DNA from: Sulfitobacter sp. 20_GPM-1509m | GTDB lineage: Bacteria; Pseudomonadota; Alphaproteobacteria; Rhodobacterales; Rhodobacteraceae | NCBI RefSeq assembly: GCF_000620505.1 | Contig: NZ_JIBC01000007.1 | Coordinates: forward strand, 124,001-188,000 | Direction of reading: 5' to 3' | DNA: 64,000 nt | Part shown: positions 52,306 to 56,794 of the stretch, piece after piece | Layout: every line of letters starts with the position of its first letter | Position numbering within the stretch: position 1 is the first letter of the stretch | The notes under the pieces: model-generated | Database searches by the model: none | The model's input: only the letters and a program-made list of their open reading frames with translations | What the model was told of the DNA's origin: nothing | Position numbers and translations under genes: made by a program

Positions 52306-52397
52306 GTCCCTGACTTAGGCGGGTTGTTTCAACCTGTCCACAAGGTTGTGACCAAAGGCCGCGTGACGGCGCTGTGCCAATGGCCTATGTCCAAGCC

Positions 52398-53150
52398 ATG
52401 TACGGAATAGACATCATCGACGCAGCCCTGCTGCCTGCCATGCTGGTCGCGCTTGTGGCCGGTGTCTTCAGCTTTCTGTCCCCTTGCGTGTTGCCCATCG
52501 TGCCACCCTATCTGGCCTATATGAGCGGTGTGACCCTGAACGATATGGACAGCGTTGCATCGGGTCGCAGACGTGCCGTGATTGCCGCGCTGTTCTTTGT
52601 GATGGGGCTGAGCACGGTGTTCCTGCTGCTGGGGTTCACCGCCTCGGCCTTTGGCGCGTTCTTCCTGCAAAATCAGGCGCTGTTTTCCAAGATTTCGGGC
52701 GTCGTGGTGATCGTTTTTGGCCTGCATTTCCTGGGTGTCTTCCGCATCCCCTTTCTGGATCAAGAGGCGCGGCTGGACGTGGGCGACCGGGGTGGGTCGT
52801 CCTTTGGCGCCTATGTGCTGGGTCTGGCCTTTGCCTTTGGCTGGACGCCGTGCATCGGTCCGCAACTGGGTGCGATCCTGTCACTGGCCGCCTCCGAGGC
52901 ATCGGTGGCCCGTGGCACTGTTCTGCTGGGCGTCTATGCGGCGGGACTGGGCATTCCGTTCCTGCTGGCCGCGATGTTCATCACCCGCGCGATGGGGCTG
53001 ATGAACCGGATCAAACGCCACATGAAGCTGATCGAGCGGATCATGGGCGTGCTCCTGGTCATCGTCGGACTGGCATTGGTCACCGGCGCGTTTACCTGGT
53101 TCAGCTTCTGGCTGCTGGAAACCTTTCCCGTTCTCAGCACTTTAGGCTGA
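52398..53150 (+). CDS. ccdA: Cytochrome c biogenesis protein CcdA
   Basis: 250 residues from MYGIDIIDAALLPAMLVALV (in-frame alternatives 6-8 codons upstream). Six membrane helices with redox cysteines in FLSPCVLPIVPPY and GWTPCIGPQLG. CcdA carries reducing power from thioredoxin to periplasmic apocytochromes and other thiol proteins, so it would serve CcoO and CcoP. The downstream hydrolase gene starts 51 bp later. Confidence 0.92.
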   Translation: MYGIDIIDAALLPAMLVALVAGVFSFLSPCVLPIVPPYLAYMSGVTLNDMDSVASGRRRAVIAALFFVMGLSTVFLLLGFTASAFGAFFLQNQALFSKISGVVVIVFGLHFLGVFRIPFLDQEARLDVGDRGGSSFGAYVLGLAFAFGWTPCIGPQLGAILSLAASEASVARGTVLLGVYAAGLGIPFLLAAMFITRAMGLMNRIKRHMKLIERIMGVLLVIVGLALVTGAFTWFSFWLLETFPVLSTLG

Positions 53151-53201: not shown

Positions 53202-54470
53202 ATGCACGAACAGCAAGACACAGTGACCAGACGACGGGTGTTCTACATCCCCGGCTATGATCCCATTCACCCGCGCCGCTACCGCGAGCTTTACCGCAAG
53301 GAAGGCAGCGCGCAGGCCGAGATCAGCGGCTACGAGATCGGGCTGAAACCGCGCAAGTTCAATGGCAATTACGGCTGGCATGTGGATGCGGTCATTGATG
53401 GCACGGAGGTGGACGCGGATGTCGAGGTGCTGGTCTGGTCCGACATCGTGCGCGACAGCATGGCGACCTCGATTCCCGCGACCTATCTGCAACTGGTCCG
53501 CACGGCTTGGGTCTATATCGCGACCGGCGCCTTGGGGCGTCTGATGAAGCTGCGCAAGGGGCCGATCATCGCGGCGCTTTATCCGGTGGGCATGTTGCTG
53601 GTGCAATTGCTGCTGGCGGTTCTGCTGGCGTTGGCCGTGTTCACATGGGGCTTTCGCGCGATGGACTGGGCCATGCAGGCGGCGATGGGGCCGCATATGC
53701 TGGGGCCGTTATTCGGGCTGCGGCTGATCCTGTGGGGCGCGCTGGCGCTGGTGGCGGCGGTCTGGTTGATGCGGTGGTTCAAGAAACAGGACGGCAAGTT
53801 CTTTGCCTATTACTTGATGCACGACTATGCGTTTTCCGCCGCCTCGCGTGGGGCGAACCCGGCAGCACTTGAGGCGCGTATGGCGGTCTTTGCGGACAGC
53901 ATCGCGGCGTCGCTGCGATCCGAGGTCGACGAGGTTCTGGTCGTCGGCCATTCCTCGGGTGCACATCTGGCGGTGTCGATCCTGTCCGACCTGATCCGCG
54001 CGGGCAGGGTGCCGGGCGACGGTCCGCAGCTGGCGTTTCTTTCGCTGGGGCAGGTGGTGCCGATGGTGTCGTTCCTGCCCGATGCGCACCGGCTGCGTGG
54101 TGATCTGCGGTTTCTCGGCAAGACCGACGCGCTGACATGGGTCGACGTGACCGCACCCGGCGATGGCTGTGCCTTTGCACTGTGTGATCCGGTGGCGGTG
54201 TCGGGCGTGGCACCCGAAGGGCAAAGGTGGCCGCTGGTGCTGTCAGCGGCCTTTACCCAGACGCTGAGCGCCGCGCGCTGGAAGGAGCTGCGCTGGCGAT
54301 TCTTCCGGCTGCATTTCCAGTATCTGTGTGCATTCGACCGGCCGGGTGATTATGACTATTTCCAGATCACCGCAGGCCCGCAGTTGCTGTCCGACCGATA
54401 TGCAGGCCGCGCCCCTTCGAAATCGCGCATCGTGGCGGCGGTGTCAAAATACACCACAGTGGCCGCATGA
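53202..54470 (+). CDS. Membrane-embedded alpha/beta-hydrolase-like protein, unknown
   Basis: 422 residues. N-terminal soluble part begins RRRVFYIPGYDPIHPRRYRE; two or three membrane helices lie at about residues 125-195 (ALYPVGMLLVQLLLAVLLAL, LILWGALALVAAVWLM); then a hydrolase half with the nucleophile elbow GHSSGA (Ser251). FYIPGYDP resembles the oxyanion-hole strand of the fold, so the membrane helices appear inserted in the hydrolase domain. I recognise no characterised family. The P450 gene overlaps its stop (ATGA), so the two products probably act together. Confidence 0.7.
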   Translation: MHEQQDTVTRRRVFYIPGYDPIHPRRYRELYRKEGSAQAEISGYEIGLKPRKFNGNYGWHVDAVIDGTEVDADVEVLVWSDIVRDSMATSIPATYLQLVRTAWVYIATGALGRLMKLRKGPIIAALYPVGMLLVQLLLAVLLALAVFTWGFRAMDWAMQAAMGPHMLGPLFGLRLILWGALALVAAVWLMRWFKKQDGKFFAYYLMHDYAFSAASRGANPAALEARMAVFADSIAASLRSEVDEVLVVGHSSGAHLAVSILSDLIRAGRVPGDGPQLAFLSLGQVVPMVSFLPDAHRLRGDLRFLGKTDALTWVDVTAPGDGCAFALCDPVAVSGVAPEGQRWPLVLSAAFTQTLSAARWKELRWRFFRLHFQYLCAFDRPGDYDYFQITAGPQLLSDRYAGRAPSKSRIVAAVSKYTTVAA

Positions 54471-55819
54471 CCCAACCGCCCAAGCCGCCAAGCCGTCCCG
54501 ACAAAGTGTCGCTGTGGCGCTATGTGCGCCTGTTCCGGCGTGACCTGCTGTCGGCTCAACCTGCACGGCTGTACCGCGCCTGGATGGCCGAGTTTCGGAC
54601 GCCGTTTTTCCGGTCCTATCTGCTGAACCAGCCCGATCTGGTCGATCTGGTGCTGAAAGAACGTCCCGACGATTTCCCCAAATCCGACCGCATCAGCGAA
54701 GGGCTGCGCCCGCTGCTGGGCAATTCGGTGTTTCTGACCAATGGCGAAACCTGGAAACGCCAGCGCCGCATCATCGACCCGGCATTTGAAGGCGGGCGCC
54801 TGCGCGACACCTTTGCCGCCATGTGGGACGCCGCCGAGGCTGCGGCCACGCGTTTGGACAAGCGCGCAGGGCAAGTGGTCGAGATCGAGGCCGAGACCAG
54901 CCACGCCGCCGCCGACGTGATCTTTCGCACGCTGTTTTCGATTCCCATCGAACATGAAGTGGCGACCGAGGTGTTCGACGAATTCCGCCGCTATCAGCGT
55001 GGCCAGCCGATCCTGAACCTGGCGGCTTTCATACCGCTGCCGCGCTGGATGCCGCGTCTGCACCGCAAGTCCACCCGCGCCAGTGCCGCGCGCATCCGCG
55101 ATCTGATCACACGGCTGACCCGCGACCGGATGGCGGCGATCGCGGCGGGGACGGCCCCCGACGATCTGGCGACCAAGATCATGACCACCGTCGATCCGCA
55201 AACCGGCGAGACATTTGACACCGAGGAGATGGTCGACCAGGTGGCGATCTTCTTCCTTGCAGGCCATGAAACCAGTGCCTCGGCGCTGGCTTGGGCGCTG
55301 TACCTGATGGCGCTGTATCCAGACTGGCAGGATCGGCTGGCCGGCGAAGCGCAGGTATTGGAGACAGCCGATTTCGCCGTCATGCCCAAACTGCGCCTGT
55401 CGCGGGACGTGTTCCGCGAAACCCTGCGCCTGTATCCGCCCGTGCCGATGATGGTGCGCGAGGCTGCGTGCCCCGAACATTTCCGCGACCGCGACGTGCC
55501 CAAGGGCAGTCAGTTGGTGCTTAGCCCCTGGCACCTGCACCGGCATGAACGTCTGTGGGACCGCCCCGATGATTTCGACCCCGACCGCTGGCACACCGAG
55601 AACGGCAAGGCCTGCGCGCGCAACGCCTATATGCCATTTTCCGCAGGCGCGCGGGTGTGCACCGGTGCAGGCTTTGCCATGGTCGAGGGGCCGCTGATCC
55701 TGTCGCGCATCCTGCGCGATTTCCGCGTCACGCTGACCGATGCACCGCCGCCCGTGCCTGTTGCGCATCTGACCGTACGCTCGGATGGGGGCATTCCGCT
55801 GATGCTGACCCGCCGCTGA
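54467..55819 (+). CDS. Cytochrome P450
   Basis: 450 residues. I-helix AGHETSA, K-helix ETLRLYPP with E-x-x-R, and the haem loop FSAGARVCTGAGFA with proximal Cys398. The N-terminus has no membrane anchor, so it is a soluble bacterial P450. No ferredoxin or reductase gene lies nearby. Translational coupling to the membrane hydrolase suggests a shared lipid or other hydrophobic substrate. CYP family and substrate cannot be assigned by reading. Confidence 0.92.
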   Translation: MTQPPKPPSRPDKVSLWRYVRLFRRDLLSAQPARLYRAWMAEFRTPFFRSYLLNQPDLVDLVLKERPDDFPKSDRISEGLRPLLGNSVFLTNGETWKRQRRIIDPAFEGGRLRDTFAAMWDAAEAAATRLDKRAGQVVEIEAETSHAAADVIFRTLFSIPIEHEVATEVFDEFRRYQRGQPILNLAAFIPLPRWMPRLHRKSTRASAARIRDLITRLTRDRMAAIAAGTAPDDLATKIMTTVDPQTGETFDTEEMVDQVAIFFLAGHETSASALAWALYLMALYPDWQDRLAGEAQVLETADFAVMPKLRLSRDVFRETLRLYPPVPMMVREAACPEHFRDRDVPKGSQLVLSPWHLHRHERLWDRPDDFDPDRWHTENGKACARNAYMPFSAGARVCTGAGFAMVEGPLILSRILRDFRVTLTDAPPPVPVAHLTVRSDGGIPLMLTRR

Positions 55820-55903
55820 CCGCTTGTTTGCGCTATCACATTCTAAGCCGCGCCCAGATGCGGTAACACCGTGCCAAAGAATCAAATGAATTCGGAGTTT
55901 CCC

Positions 55904-56794
55904 ATGTCCAAGACCGCAGACCAACACGCACAAATGCACACCGGCGCAGGCTTTATCGCCGCCCTGGACCAATCTGGCGGGTCGACCCCCAAGGCGCTGG
56001 GGCTCTACGGCGTGGATTCCAACGACTATGACAGCGAAGAAGCCATGTTCGCCGAAATCCAGAAGATGCGCGAGCGGATCATTCTGGCGGATGACTTCAC
56101 CGGCAAGAAGGTGATCGGTGCGATCCTGTTTGAGCGCACCATGGGCGAGAGCATCGAAGGCAAGAAAGTGCCCGACTACCTGTGGGAAAACTGCAATGTC
56201 GTGCCCTTCCTGAAGATCGACAAAGGTCTGGAAGACGAGGCAAACGGCGTGCAATTGATGAAGCCGATGCCGACATTGGACACGACCCTGCAAGCCGCGG
56301 CCAAGGCGGGCATCTATGGAACCAAGGAACGTTCGGTCGTGAATGTGGCCAATGCGGACGGGATCGAACAGGTCGTGGCCCAGCAGTTCGAGGTCGCGCG
56401 CCAGGTGATCGCCGCCGGTCTGGTGCCGATTATTGAACCCGAGGTGAACATTCATTCGGAGAGCAAGGCAGAAGCCGAGGACATGCTGAAGGCGGCCCTT
56501 CTGAAGCATCTGGACACGTTGGGGGACAGTGACAACGTGATGTTGAAACTGACCATTCCGAACGTCGCAGGGCTGTATGACGATCTGGCCGATCATGCCC
56601 GCGTGGTGCGGGTTGTGGCGCTTTCTGGCGGGTACAGCACCGATGTGGCCTGCGAAAAGCTGAGCCAGAACACCAAGATGATCGCCAGCTTCAGCCGCGC
56701 GCTGACCGAAGGGTTGCAGCGCGCCATGTCCGATGCCGAGTTCAACACTGCACTGGGCACCAACATCGACAAGATTTACCGCGCGTCGATCTGA
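55904..56794 (+). CDS. Fructose-bisphosphate aldolase class I
   Basis: 296 residues from MSKTADQHAQMHTGAGFIAA, chosen over an in-frame ATG eleven codons upstream. Features: ALDQSGGSTPKAL, the Schiff-base lysine in VMLKLTIPNVAG, and IIEPEVNIHS. Class I, metal-independent, cytoplasmic; acts in glycolysis/gluconeogenesis. Single gene with a terminator directly after it. Confidence 0.93.
   Translation: MSKTADQHAQMHTGAGFIAALDQSGGSTPKALGLYGVDSNDYDSEEAMFAEIQKMRERIILADDFTGKKVIGAILFERTMGESIEGKKVPDYLWENCNVVPFLKIDKGLEDEANGVQLMKPMPTLDTTLQAAAKAGIYGTKERSVVNVANADGIEQVVAQQFEVARQVIAAGLVPIIEPEVNIHSESKAEAEDMLKAALLKHLDTLGDSDNVMLKLTIPNVAGLYDDLADHARVVRVVALSGGYSTDVACEKLSQNTKMIASFSRALTEGLQRAMSDAEFNTALGTNIDKIYRASI

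Follow-up and report, generated by a model that had tools for sequence, protein, structure and literature searches.

The window analysed here is a stretch of 64,000 nucleotides from Sulfitobacter sp. 20_GPM-1509m (contig NZ_JIBC01000007.1, positions 124,001 to 188,000). It contains two overlapping open reading frames on the plus strand. The first (window positions 53202..54470, 422 amino acids, ATG start) encodes a predicted membrane-inserted alpha/beta hydrolase, assigned from an AlphaFold2 model and from VIA structure matches. The second (54467..55819, 450 amino acids, ATG start) encodes a cytochrome P450, assigned by PF00067 and a further AlphaFold2 model. Both frames lie where the original prediction had placed them, and the overlap that it described between the hydrolase stop and the P450 start was confirmed as the four nucleotides ATGA. 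The pair is real, conserved and, as far as searched, undescribed; a serine hydrolase and a P450 are each enzymes of known kinds.

For the hydrolase, an FYIPGYDP strand followed by membrane helices and then GHSSGA had been proposed. The same order was found, with FYIPGYDP at residues 14-21 (53241..53264), two hydrophobic segments and GHSSGA at residues 249-254 (53946..53963). The AlphaFold2 model was calculated from 81 aligned rows (the window sequence and 80 others) and reached a predicted local distance difference test score (pLDDT) of 93.2 and a predicted template modelling score of 0.92. It begins with strand 10-16 and the GYDP loop, followed by a meander, helices 80-115, a hairpin of helices 120-162 and 171-195, helices up to residue 238, strand 244-250 and the nucleophile elbow. 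FYIPGYDP corresponds to the first core strand and the loop behind it, which is probably the oxyanion loop; G18, D20 and P21 were invariant in two alignments of 27 rows (A1) and 81 rows (A4). The membrane hairpin (residues 120-195, 53559..53786) follows strand 68-76 and precedes the nucleophile strand, and its modelled helices match Kyte-Doolittle hydropathy peaks at residues 121-157 and 166-193. Since both flanks are basic (R113, K116, R118 and K119 before the hairpin; R191, K194, K195 and K199 after it), the hairpin ends and both halves of the hydrolase are probably cytoplasmic.

The GHSSGA elbow carries Ser251 directly after strand 244-250, with a helix starting at residue 253. Beyond it, Asp321 (54162..54164) and His371 (54312..54314) are carried on further strands and helices of the model and are, by conservation, the probable catalytic acid and base. 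All three residues were identical in 81/81 rows of A4 and 27/27 rows of A1. Across the wider family, represented by 37 diverse rows, S251 was kept in 97%, D321 in 100% and H371 in 97%. Two other aspartates, D315 and D329, were also present in 81/81 rows of A4; in the 37 diverse rows, their columns fell short of 90% conservation. S251-D321-H371 is therefore the probable catalytic triad as predicted from conservation, in the order Ser-acid-His. The top VIA matches of the model were LCAT (Z 10.8), lysosomal phospholipase A2 (10.4), the DDHD domain of Nir2 (10.3) and PGAP1 (9.9), with TesA (9.8) and many esterases and thioesterases close behind. The 50 matches shown had Z scores of 8.8-10.8 and were alpha/beta hydrolases by title. 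Rows of LCAT, lysosomal phospholipase A2, PGAP1 and DDHD proteins were nearly tied at Z 9.4-10.8, with identities of 10-15%. Searches against Pfam gave nothing over the cut-off (best 14.1 bits against 26.4; PF00975, PF01764, PF20434 and PF10230, lipase and thioesterase families), and no family was named by NCBIfam. Structure prediction, which had been suggested as a check, thus returned an alpha/beta fold, and the insertion of the helices within it was borne out by the high-confidence model and the VIA matches. In the model, the product of 53202-54470 has an alpha/beta-hydrolase fold that is interrupted, ahead of the nucleophile, by a membrane hairpin of two helices.

The second frame matched PF00067 with an E value of 8.3e-75 (252.7 bits, cut-off 22.8). 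It is a complete P450, as had been claimed, with AGHET at residues 265-269, ExxR at 318-321 and the haem ligand Cys398 (55658..55660) in the motif GARVCTGAGF; the cysteine was invariant in alignments A2 and A5. The AlphaFold2 model reached a pLDDT of 87.7. Ranked by fold, CYP184A1 was the best match (28% identity, template modelling score 0.83), followed by CYP97C1, BM3 and CYP4B1 with octane. The sequence search of the PDB also placed CYP184A1 on top (E 1.1e-41) and returned the same P450 group; CYP97C1 and CYP97A3 were among the nearest relatives by both fold and sequence. NCBIfam equivalogs remained below their cut-offs, with albaflavenone monooxygenase at 183.1 of 700 bits, pentalenene oxygenase at 172.1 of 800 and ApyO at 144.4 of 525. 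Nearness in fold and sequence, together with the genomic context described below, favours a P450 that hydroxylates acyl or alkyl chains. The same genome holds a second P450 on contig 7 (L220:9099-10556), 30% identical to the window P450 and located near parC-like and tuf-like genes. It was considered as a paralogue of the AlkB-linked type and rejected, given the identity of 30% and the lack of any hydrolase or AlkB recognised by eye beside it. A minus-strand open frame of 746 amino acids (54356-56596) runs antisense to the window P450 into the neighbouring aldolase gene. It was put down to high G+C content and not counted as a gene.

The presence of both proteins was surveyed in Rhodobacteraceae in the broad sense, with one genome for each of 248 genera. 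The hydrolase was found in 207 genera and the P450 (E <= 1e-60) in 211. Both were present in 204 of the 248, the hydrolase alone in three (G064, G132 and, with a weak match, G189), the P450 alone in seven and neither in 34. The seven P450-only matches, with E values of 4e-61 to 1e-90, are probably other P450s because they were all weak. Gene order was recorded in the best 80 of 570 hydrolase relatives confirmed in a genome scan; contig ends left 13 of these loci with less than 4 kb upstream and six with less than 4 kb downstream. A P450 followed directly 3' of the hydrolase in 80/80 loci, at a spacing of -7 to +32 nucleotides with the start set by alignment. The neighbouring genes recurred less often in the same loci: CcdA in 65, rne in 57, fumC in 45 and fructose-bisphosphate aldolase (FBA) in 12. 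Co-occurrence across genomes, the second check proposed, thus showed the two genes to be conserved together, and their pairing is not accidental. Neither of the two findings that would have refuted the original prediction, a pair not kept together or a hydrolase lacking the alpha/beta fold, was obtained. Carriers of the pair include Ruegeria and Paracoccus denitrificans. Looser arrangements also occurred among the surveyed genera. Hydrolase and P450 were about 790 nucleotides apart in G045, and in G077 the hydrolase lay close to a contig end, with its neighbour beyond the sequence. In one of the 80 loci, that of Roseobacter sp. GAI101 (L180, 6188-7554), the P450 was broken into two overlapping frames, one for residues 1-197 and one for 198-450, which may reflect a frameshift or a sequencing error. 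Loci of the Rhodobacteraceae type were also present in two assemblies titled Oceanobacillus sp. HTM 045 (L103) and Nocardioides marinus DP1N28-1 (L131), which are probably mixed or mislabelled. The names fumC, dxs, purL, DctD, glycerol kinase and transposase were assigned by eye throughout, and genes in unannotated loci were called with a simple codon-score caller, by which some genes were missed.

In the window, a gene for a CcdA/DsbD-type membrane protein (52374..53150, plus strand; PF02683, 3e-17) ends 51 nucleotides 5' of the hydrolase. A gap of 33-162 nucleotides separated the two in 64 of the 65 CcdA-bearing loci, and the CcdA/DsbD-type gene is probably the first gene of the hydrolase-P450 transcript. 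Further 5' are MFS, SulP and RNase E genes. On the 3' side, the P450 is followed by a class I FBA gene, for which NCBIfam PRK05377 was above cut-off, and then by a fumarase-like gene on the opposite strand, assigned by eye. A functional tie of the pair to CcdA, FBA or fumarase is not claimed, since the neighbours vary among loci. The original prediction had also stressed that no ferredoxin, reductase or pathway gene was near. This was correct for the genes next to the pair, none of which is of these kinds: CcdA, MFS, SulP and RNase E lie on one side, FBA and the fumarase-like gene on the other. As evidence it did not stand. A class I system, with ferredoxin and reductase as proteins of their own, is a candidate for the P450; the same genome gave 12 Fer2 matches, one of which is a standalone [2Fe-2S] ferredoxin that we take to be of the adrenodoxin type, resembling FdVI of R. 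capsulatus. Because the gene for this ferredoxin lies at another place in the genome, the lack of one nearby carries little weight, and the argument was dropped.

Outside Rhodobacteraceae, the gene context of the pair pointed to lipids. In the distant alphaproteobacterial genus g290 of family f42 (our label), the order patatin-hydrolase-P450 was found in 6/6 genomes, with LpxR (PF09982) directly before it in 5/6. Four of these loci were retrieved with 19 kb of sequence. In 4/4 the P450 was followed by a GT21-like glycosyltransferase; one copy was recognised by PF13506, and the others were 57-59% identical. At the opposite end, 3/4 carried an FGGY kinase that looked glycerol-kinase-like by eye. 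The clusters span L189:7311-14955, L190:5914-13339, L191:4874-11484 (no LpxR seen) and L192:5922-11811 (no FGGY kinase seen). On plasmid 1 of Polaromonas sp. JS666, the order was a GT1-type glycosyltransferase, hydrolase, P450, a protein of 114 amino acids and a second hydrolase. In two distant settings, the pair is accompanied by lipid deacylases or glycosyltransferases.

The best-supported reading of the pair, from the context in relatives and the structural neighbours of the P450, is the one first proposed, in which two enzymes together serve a membrane lipid or a hydrophobic metabolite. In the form put forward here, it would be a lipid-tailoring system in which a deacylase or esterase working in the plane of the membrane and an acyl-chain hydroxylase act on one lipid. 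We give this form slightly less than an even chance. A fold match led by lipid-acting hydrolases, the invariant triad columns, the coupling in 80/80 loci and co-inheritance argue for it. The hairpin would anchor the hydrolase in the inner membrane, with the catalytic domain facing the cytoplasm, and would admit an acyl chain from the bilayer. Ser251-Asp321-His371 would act on an acyl ester of a lipid residing in the membrane, by cleavage or by transfer. The P450 would hydroxylate the alkyl chain of this acyl group with electrons from a ferredoxin encoded elsewhere. The reverse order is equally open, with the P450 acting first and the hydroxylated product then being released or closed by the hydrolase. 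A link to furan fatty acids was considered and dropped; the oxygen step in these lipids is tied to UfaO (PMC7380195).

A duplicate branch of the P450, with 62-69% identity to the window P450, was found directly upstream of AlkB and not beside a hydrolase. Among the 30 best AlkB matches, this P450 branch was represented upstream in 9/9 of those with at least 69% identity to the query and in 0/21 of those with 60-63%. The nine tandems (L265-L273) belong to Rhodobacteraceae, with the P450 paralogue immediately upstream in each. AlkB was assigned by PF00487 and by HELFHK, NYVEHYGL and LQRHADHH in the translation, which we take to be AlkB motifs. In the P450 tree, the AlkB-linked copies grouped as a single clade within the hydrolase-linked P450s, next to that of Thioclava; the support of this clade, 94/91, was below the starred level. 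Upstream of two tandems (L184:3024-5081 and L185:3098-5233), similar-looking proteins were encoded, of which the one in L184 contains a Hint domain together with RTX repeats. The switch of partner from hydrolase to AlkB likely narrows the P450 substrate to alkyl chains and amounts to a natural experiment on it. Long alkyl chains are favoured as the P450 substrate by the tandem, the context in relatives and the fold neighbours of the P450 taken together, with isoprenoids as a less probable substrate.

The same tandem (9/9 loci), the three motifs of its AlkB and the resemblance of the P450 to CYP4B1 with octane and to BM3 also suit a catabolic role. The hydrolase would then open exogenous hydrophobic esters such as wax esters, alkyl esters or lactones, and the P450 would attack the released chain or an alkane for hydrocarbon use. 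This is unlikely to be the role of the pair. A housekeeping function fits better than an optional substrate, because the pair occurs in 204 of 248 genera and often in the same place near rne and fumC. The f42 relatives, with LpxR, patatin and a glycosyltransferase, likewise speak against catabolism.

Relatives of the hydrolase were also sought beyond the family. The class-wide search found them in 9/289 genomes with a single sequence and in 14/289 with a profile, four of them Rhodobacteraceae each time. The phylum-wide profile search found them in 46/398 genomes, of which 27 were Rhodobacteraceae. Neighbourhoods outside the family were read with the phylum-wide matches of G576 and G634 and the weakest ones (G358, G869 and the second of G612 and G634) left aside. 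The f42 loci were fetched by a hydrolase match, and the hydrolases in several other loci were located with references other than the f42 hydrolase. A linked P450 was present in all six g290 genomes, on the Polaromonas plasmid, in G893 of family f160 (L258) and in G612 of family f181 (L260), which could be the family of Polaromonas itself. In L260, about 4.6 kb with a transposase-like gene separate hydrolase and P450. Other hydrolases had other partners. An ICMT-family methyltransferase accompanied the hydrolase in L257, L259, L261, L262, L263 and on two plasmids, and a GT1-type glycosyltransferase adjoined the hydrolase in Methylorubrum and L256. Hydrolases with none of these three partners comprised six of the f70 type (two near a contig end), four beside dxs, four between recQ and purL, and L264. 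A methyltransferase of the ICMT/PEMT families directly 3' of a P450-less hydrolase is the second recurring pairing of this hydrolase family, the loci being the five listed together with L082:5470-7232 and L197:5956-7808. The hydrolases adjoining dxs, the first isoprenoid gene, form a subfamily (L252-L255), with an xseB-like gene, recognised by eye, in three of the four loci. Four pattern matches on viral contigs included no relative.

The dxs neighbours bear on a further alternative, in which the P450 would hydroxylate a terpenoid, carotenoid or hopanoid and the hydrolase would remove or add its ester. The carotenoid hydroxylases CYP97C1 and CYP97A3 among the nearest folds and sequences suit such tailoring, as do the best NCBIfam models, those for albaflavenone monooxygenase and pentalenene oxygenase, although both scored far below cut-off. 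However, the three dxs-adjacent hydrolases included in the hydrolase tree fell outside the P450-linked clade, and no terpene or carotenoid gene was recognised among the 35 largest neighbour clusters of the 80 loci. Isoprenoid tailoring is improbable.

In the tree of 37 hydrolase sequences, the 17 P450-linked ones formed one side of a branch supported at 100/99 and present in all 200 bootstrap trees. This clade takes in the Rhodobacteraceae, Polaromonas, f42, f160 and f181 genomes. Matching groups were found in the P450 tree, which contained one very long row and whose bootstrap was not fully settled: Polaromonas with f181 (100/99), f42 with f160 (86/85) and Rhodobacteraceae (100/99). With the P450-linked hydrolases in one clade and the P450 groups matching them, a single ancient pairing with joint inheritance would be the simplest account, the details being unsure given the long branches of L258 and L260. 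A further alternative is that of two independent enzymes that share no substrate and are held together by gene order only. The region of rne, ccdA and the pair is itself conserved in many Rhodobacteraceae, as such an explanation would have it. Yet the pair outlasts its neighbours in 80/80 loci, is also linked amid other surroundings in f42, f160, f181 and Polaromonas, and includes hydrolases of a single clade, which makes mere neighbourhood very improbable. A role in acyl signalling, with the hydrolase cleaving a long-chain N-acyl homoserine lactone or similar compound and the P450 hydroxylating its acyl chain, is suggested by two BM3 entries with N-decanoyl homoserine lactone among the P450 fold neighbours and is highly improbable, as both entries are engineered mutants, no signal synthase was recognised among the 35 clusters named above and the sole recurring regulator was DctD-like, about 5 kb upstream in 17 loci.

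Several observations also weigh against the lipid-tailoring pair. Foldseek gave no hydrolase match at E <= 0.001 against the PDB; the other folds in its list, aldose reductase among them, had E values of 0.075 or worse and were treated as noise. Z scores near 10 indicate a fold and not a substrate. For the P450, CYP97 carotenoid hydroxylases came second among the fold matches, and the nearest NCBIfam models, all far below cut-off, describe terpenoid P450s. The partners are separable. Many hydrolase relatives lack a P450, and the AlkB-linked P450s have no adjoining hydrolase. In G100, the hydrolase was followed directly by the aldolase gene without an adjoining P450, and the sole P450 match at E <= 1e-60 in that genome was the AlkB-linked copy. 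Lipid genes hardly recur beside the pair in Rhodobacteraceae, as judged from the 35 largest of 49 neighbour clusters with at least two loci among the 80. The exceptions were a patatin-like gene, located some 3 kb past the P450 in 5/80 loci, and a cardiolipin-synthase-like gene in 2/80, both assigned by eye.

Lipid tailoring by the pair may extend to a pathway present nearly throughout Rhodobacteraceae, a tentative and rather doubtful proposal. A hydrolase in the plane of the bilayer would deliver acyl chains to, or receive them from, a dedicated P450, giving a hydroxylated-acyl lipid or a free oxylipin-like product, and the P450 would later have been recruited to AlkB-linked alkyl oxidation. 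If true, the product would be a not-yet-reported hydroxylated-acyl lipid or oxylipin-like compound of abundant marine bacteria. Rhodobacteraceae are common in the ocean, and the wide retention of the P450 among them suggests that some oxidised lipid or metabolite is basic to their cells. The hydrolase family reaches further than the pair, to Hyphomicrobiales plasmids and Polaromonas, with varied tailoring enzymes as partners. Because it is broad and its partners differ, solving one member would open several systems. In line with the original prediction, which knew of no description, the literature searched held none of the hydrolase, the pair or the P450-AlkB tandem; this is no proof, as subscription papers and preprints lay outside the search. 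Among the matches listed for LpxR, patatin and P450, nothing was on the subject.

Compared with known systems, the hydrolase shares its predicted fold, the GxSxG elbow and the Ser-Asp-His order with LCAT, lysosomal phospholipase A2, PGAP1/Bst1 and DDHD proteins. It differs from them by an identity of only 10-15%, the lack of a Pfam assignment and the hairpin ahead of the nucleophile strand. For the P450, the best match in the PDB by sequence and fold is CYP184A1 of Streptomyces avermitilis (7wzl; 7wzm with oleic acid), at less than 30% identity; the name CYP184A1 was absent from the literature searched, within the same bounds. CYP102 (BM3), CYP4B1 and CYP97 belong to the same fold group, with about 20-24% identity. 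BM3 is fused to its own reductase, CYP4B1 is microsomal and CYP97 is plastidial. Unlike BM3, the window P450 forms a chain of its own, and no reductase gene adjoins it. A further close arrangement is the P450-AlkB tandem found here, in which a P450 akin to that of the window has AlkB downstream in place of the hydrolase upstream.

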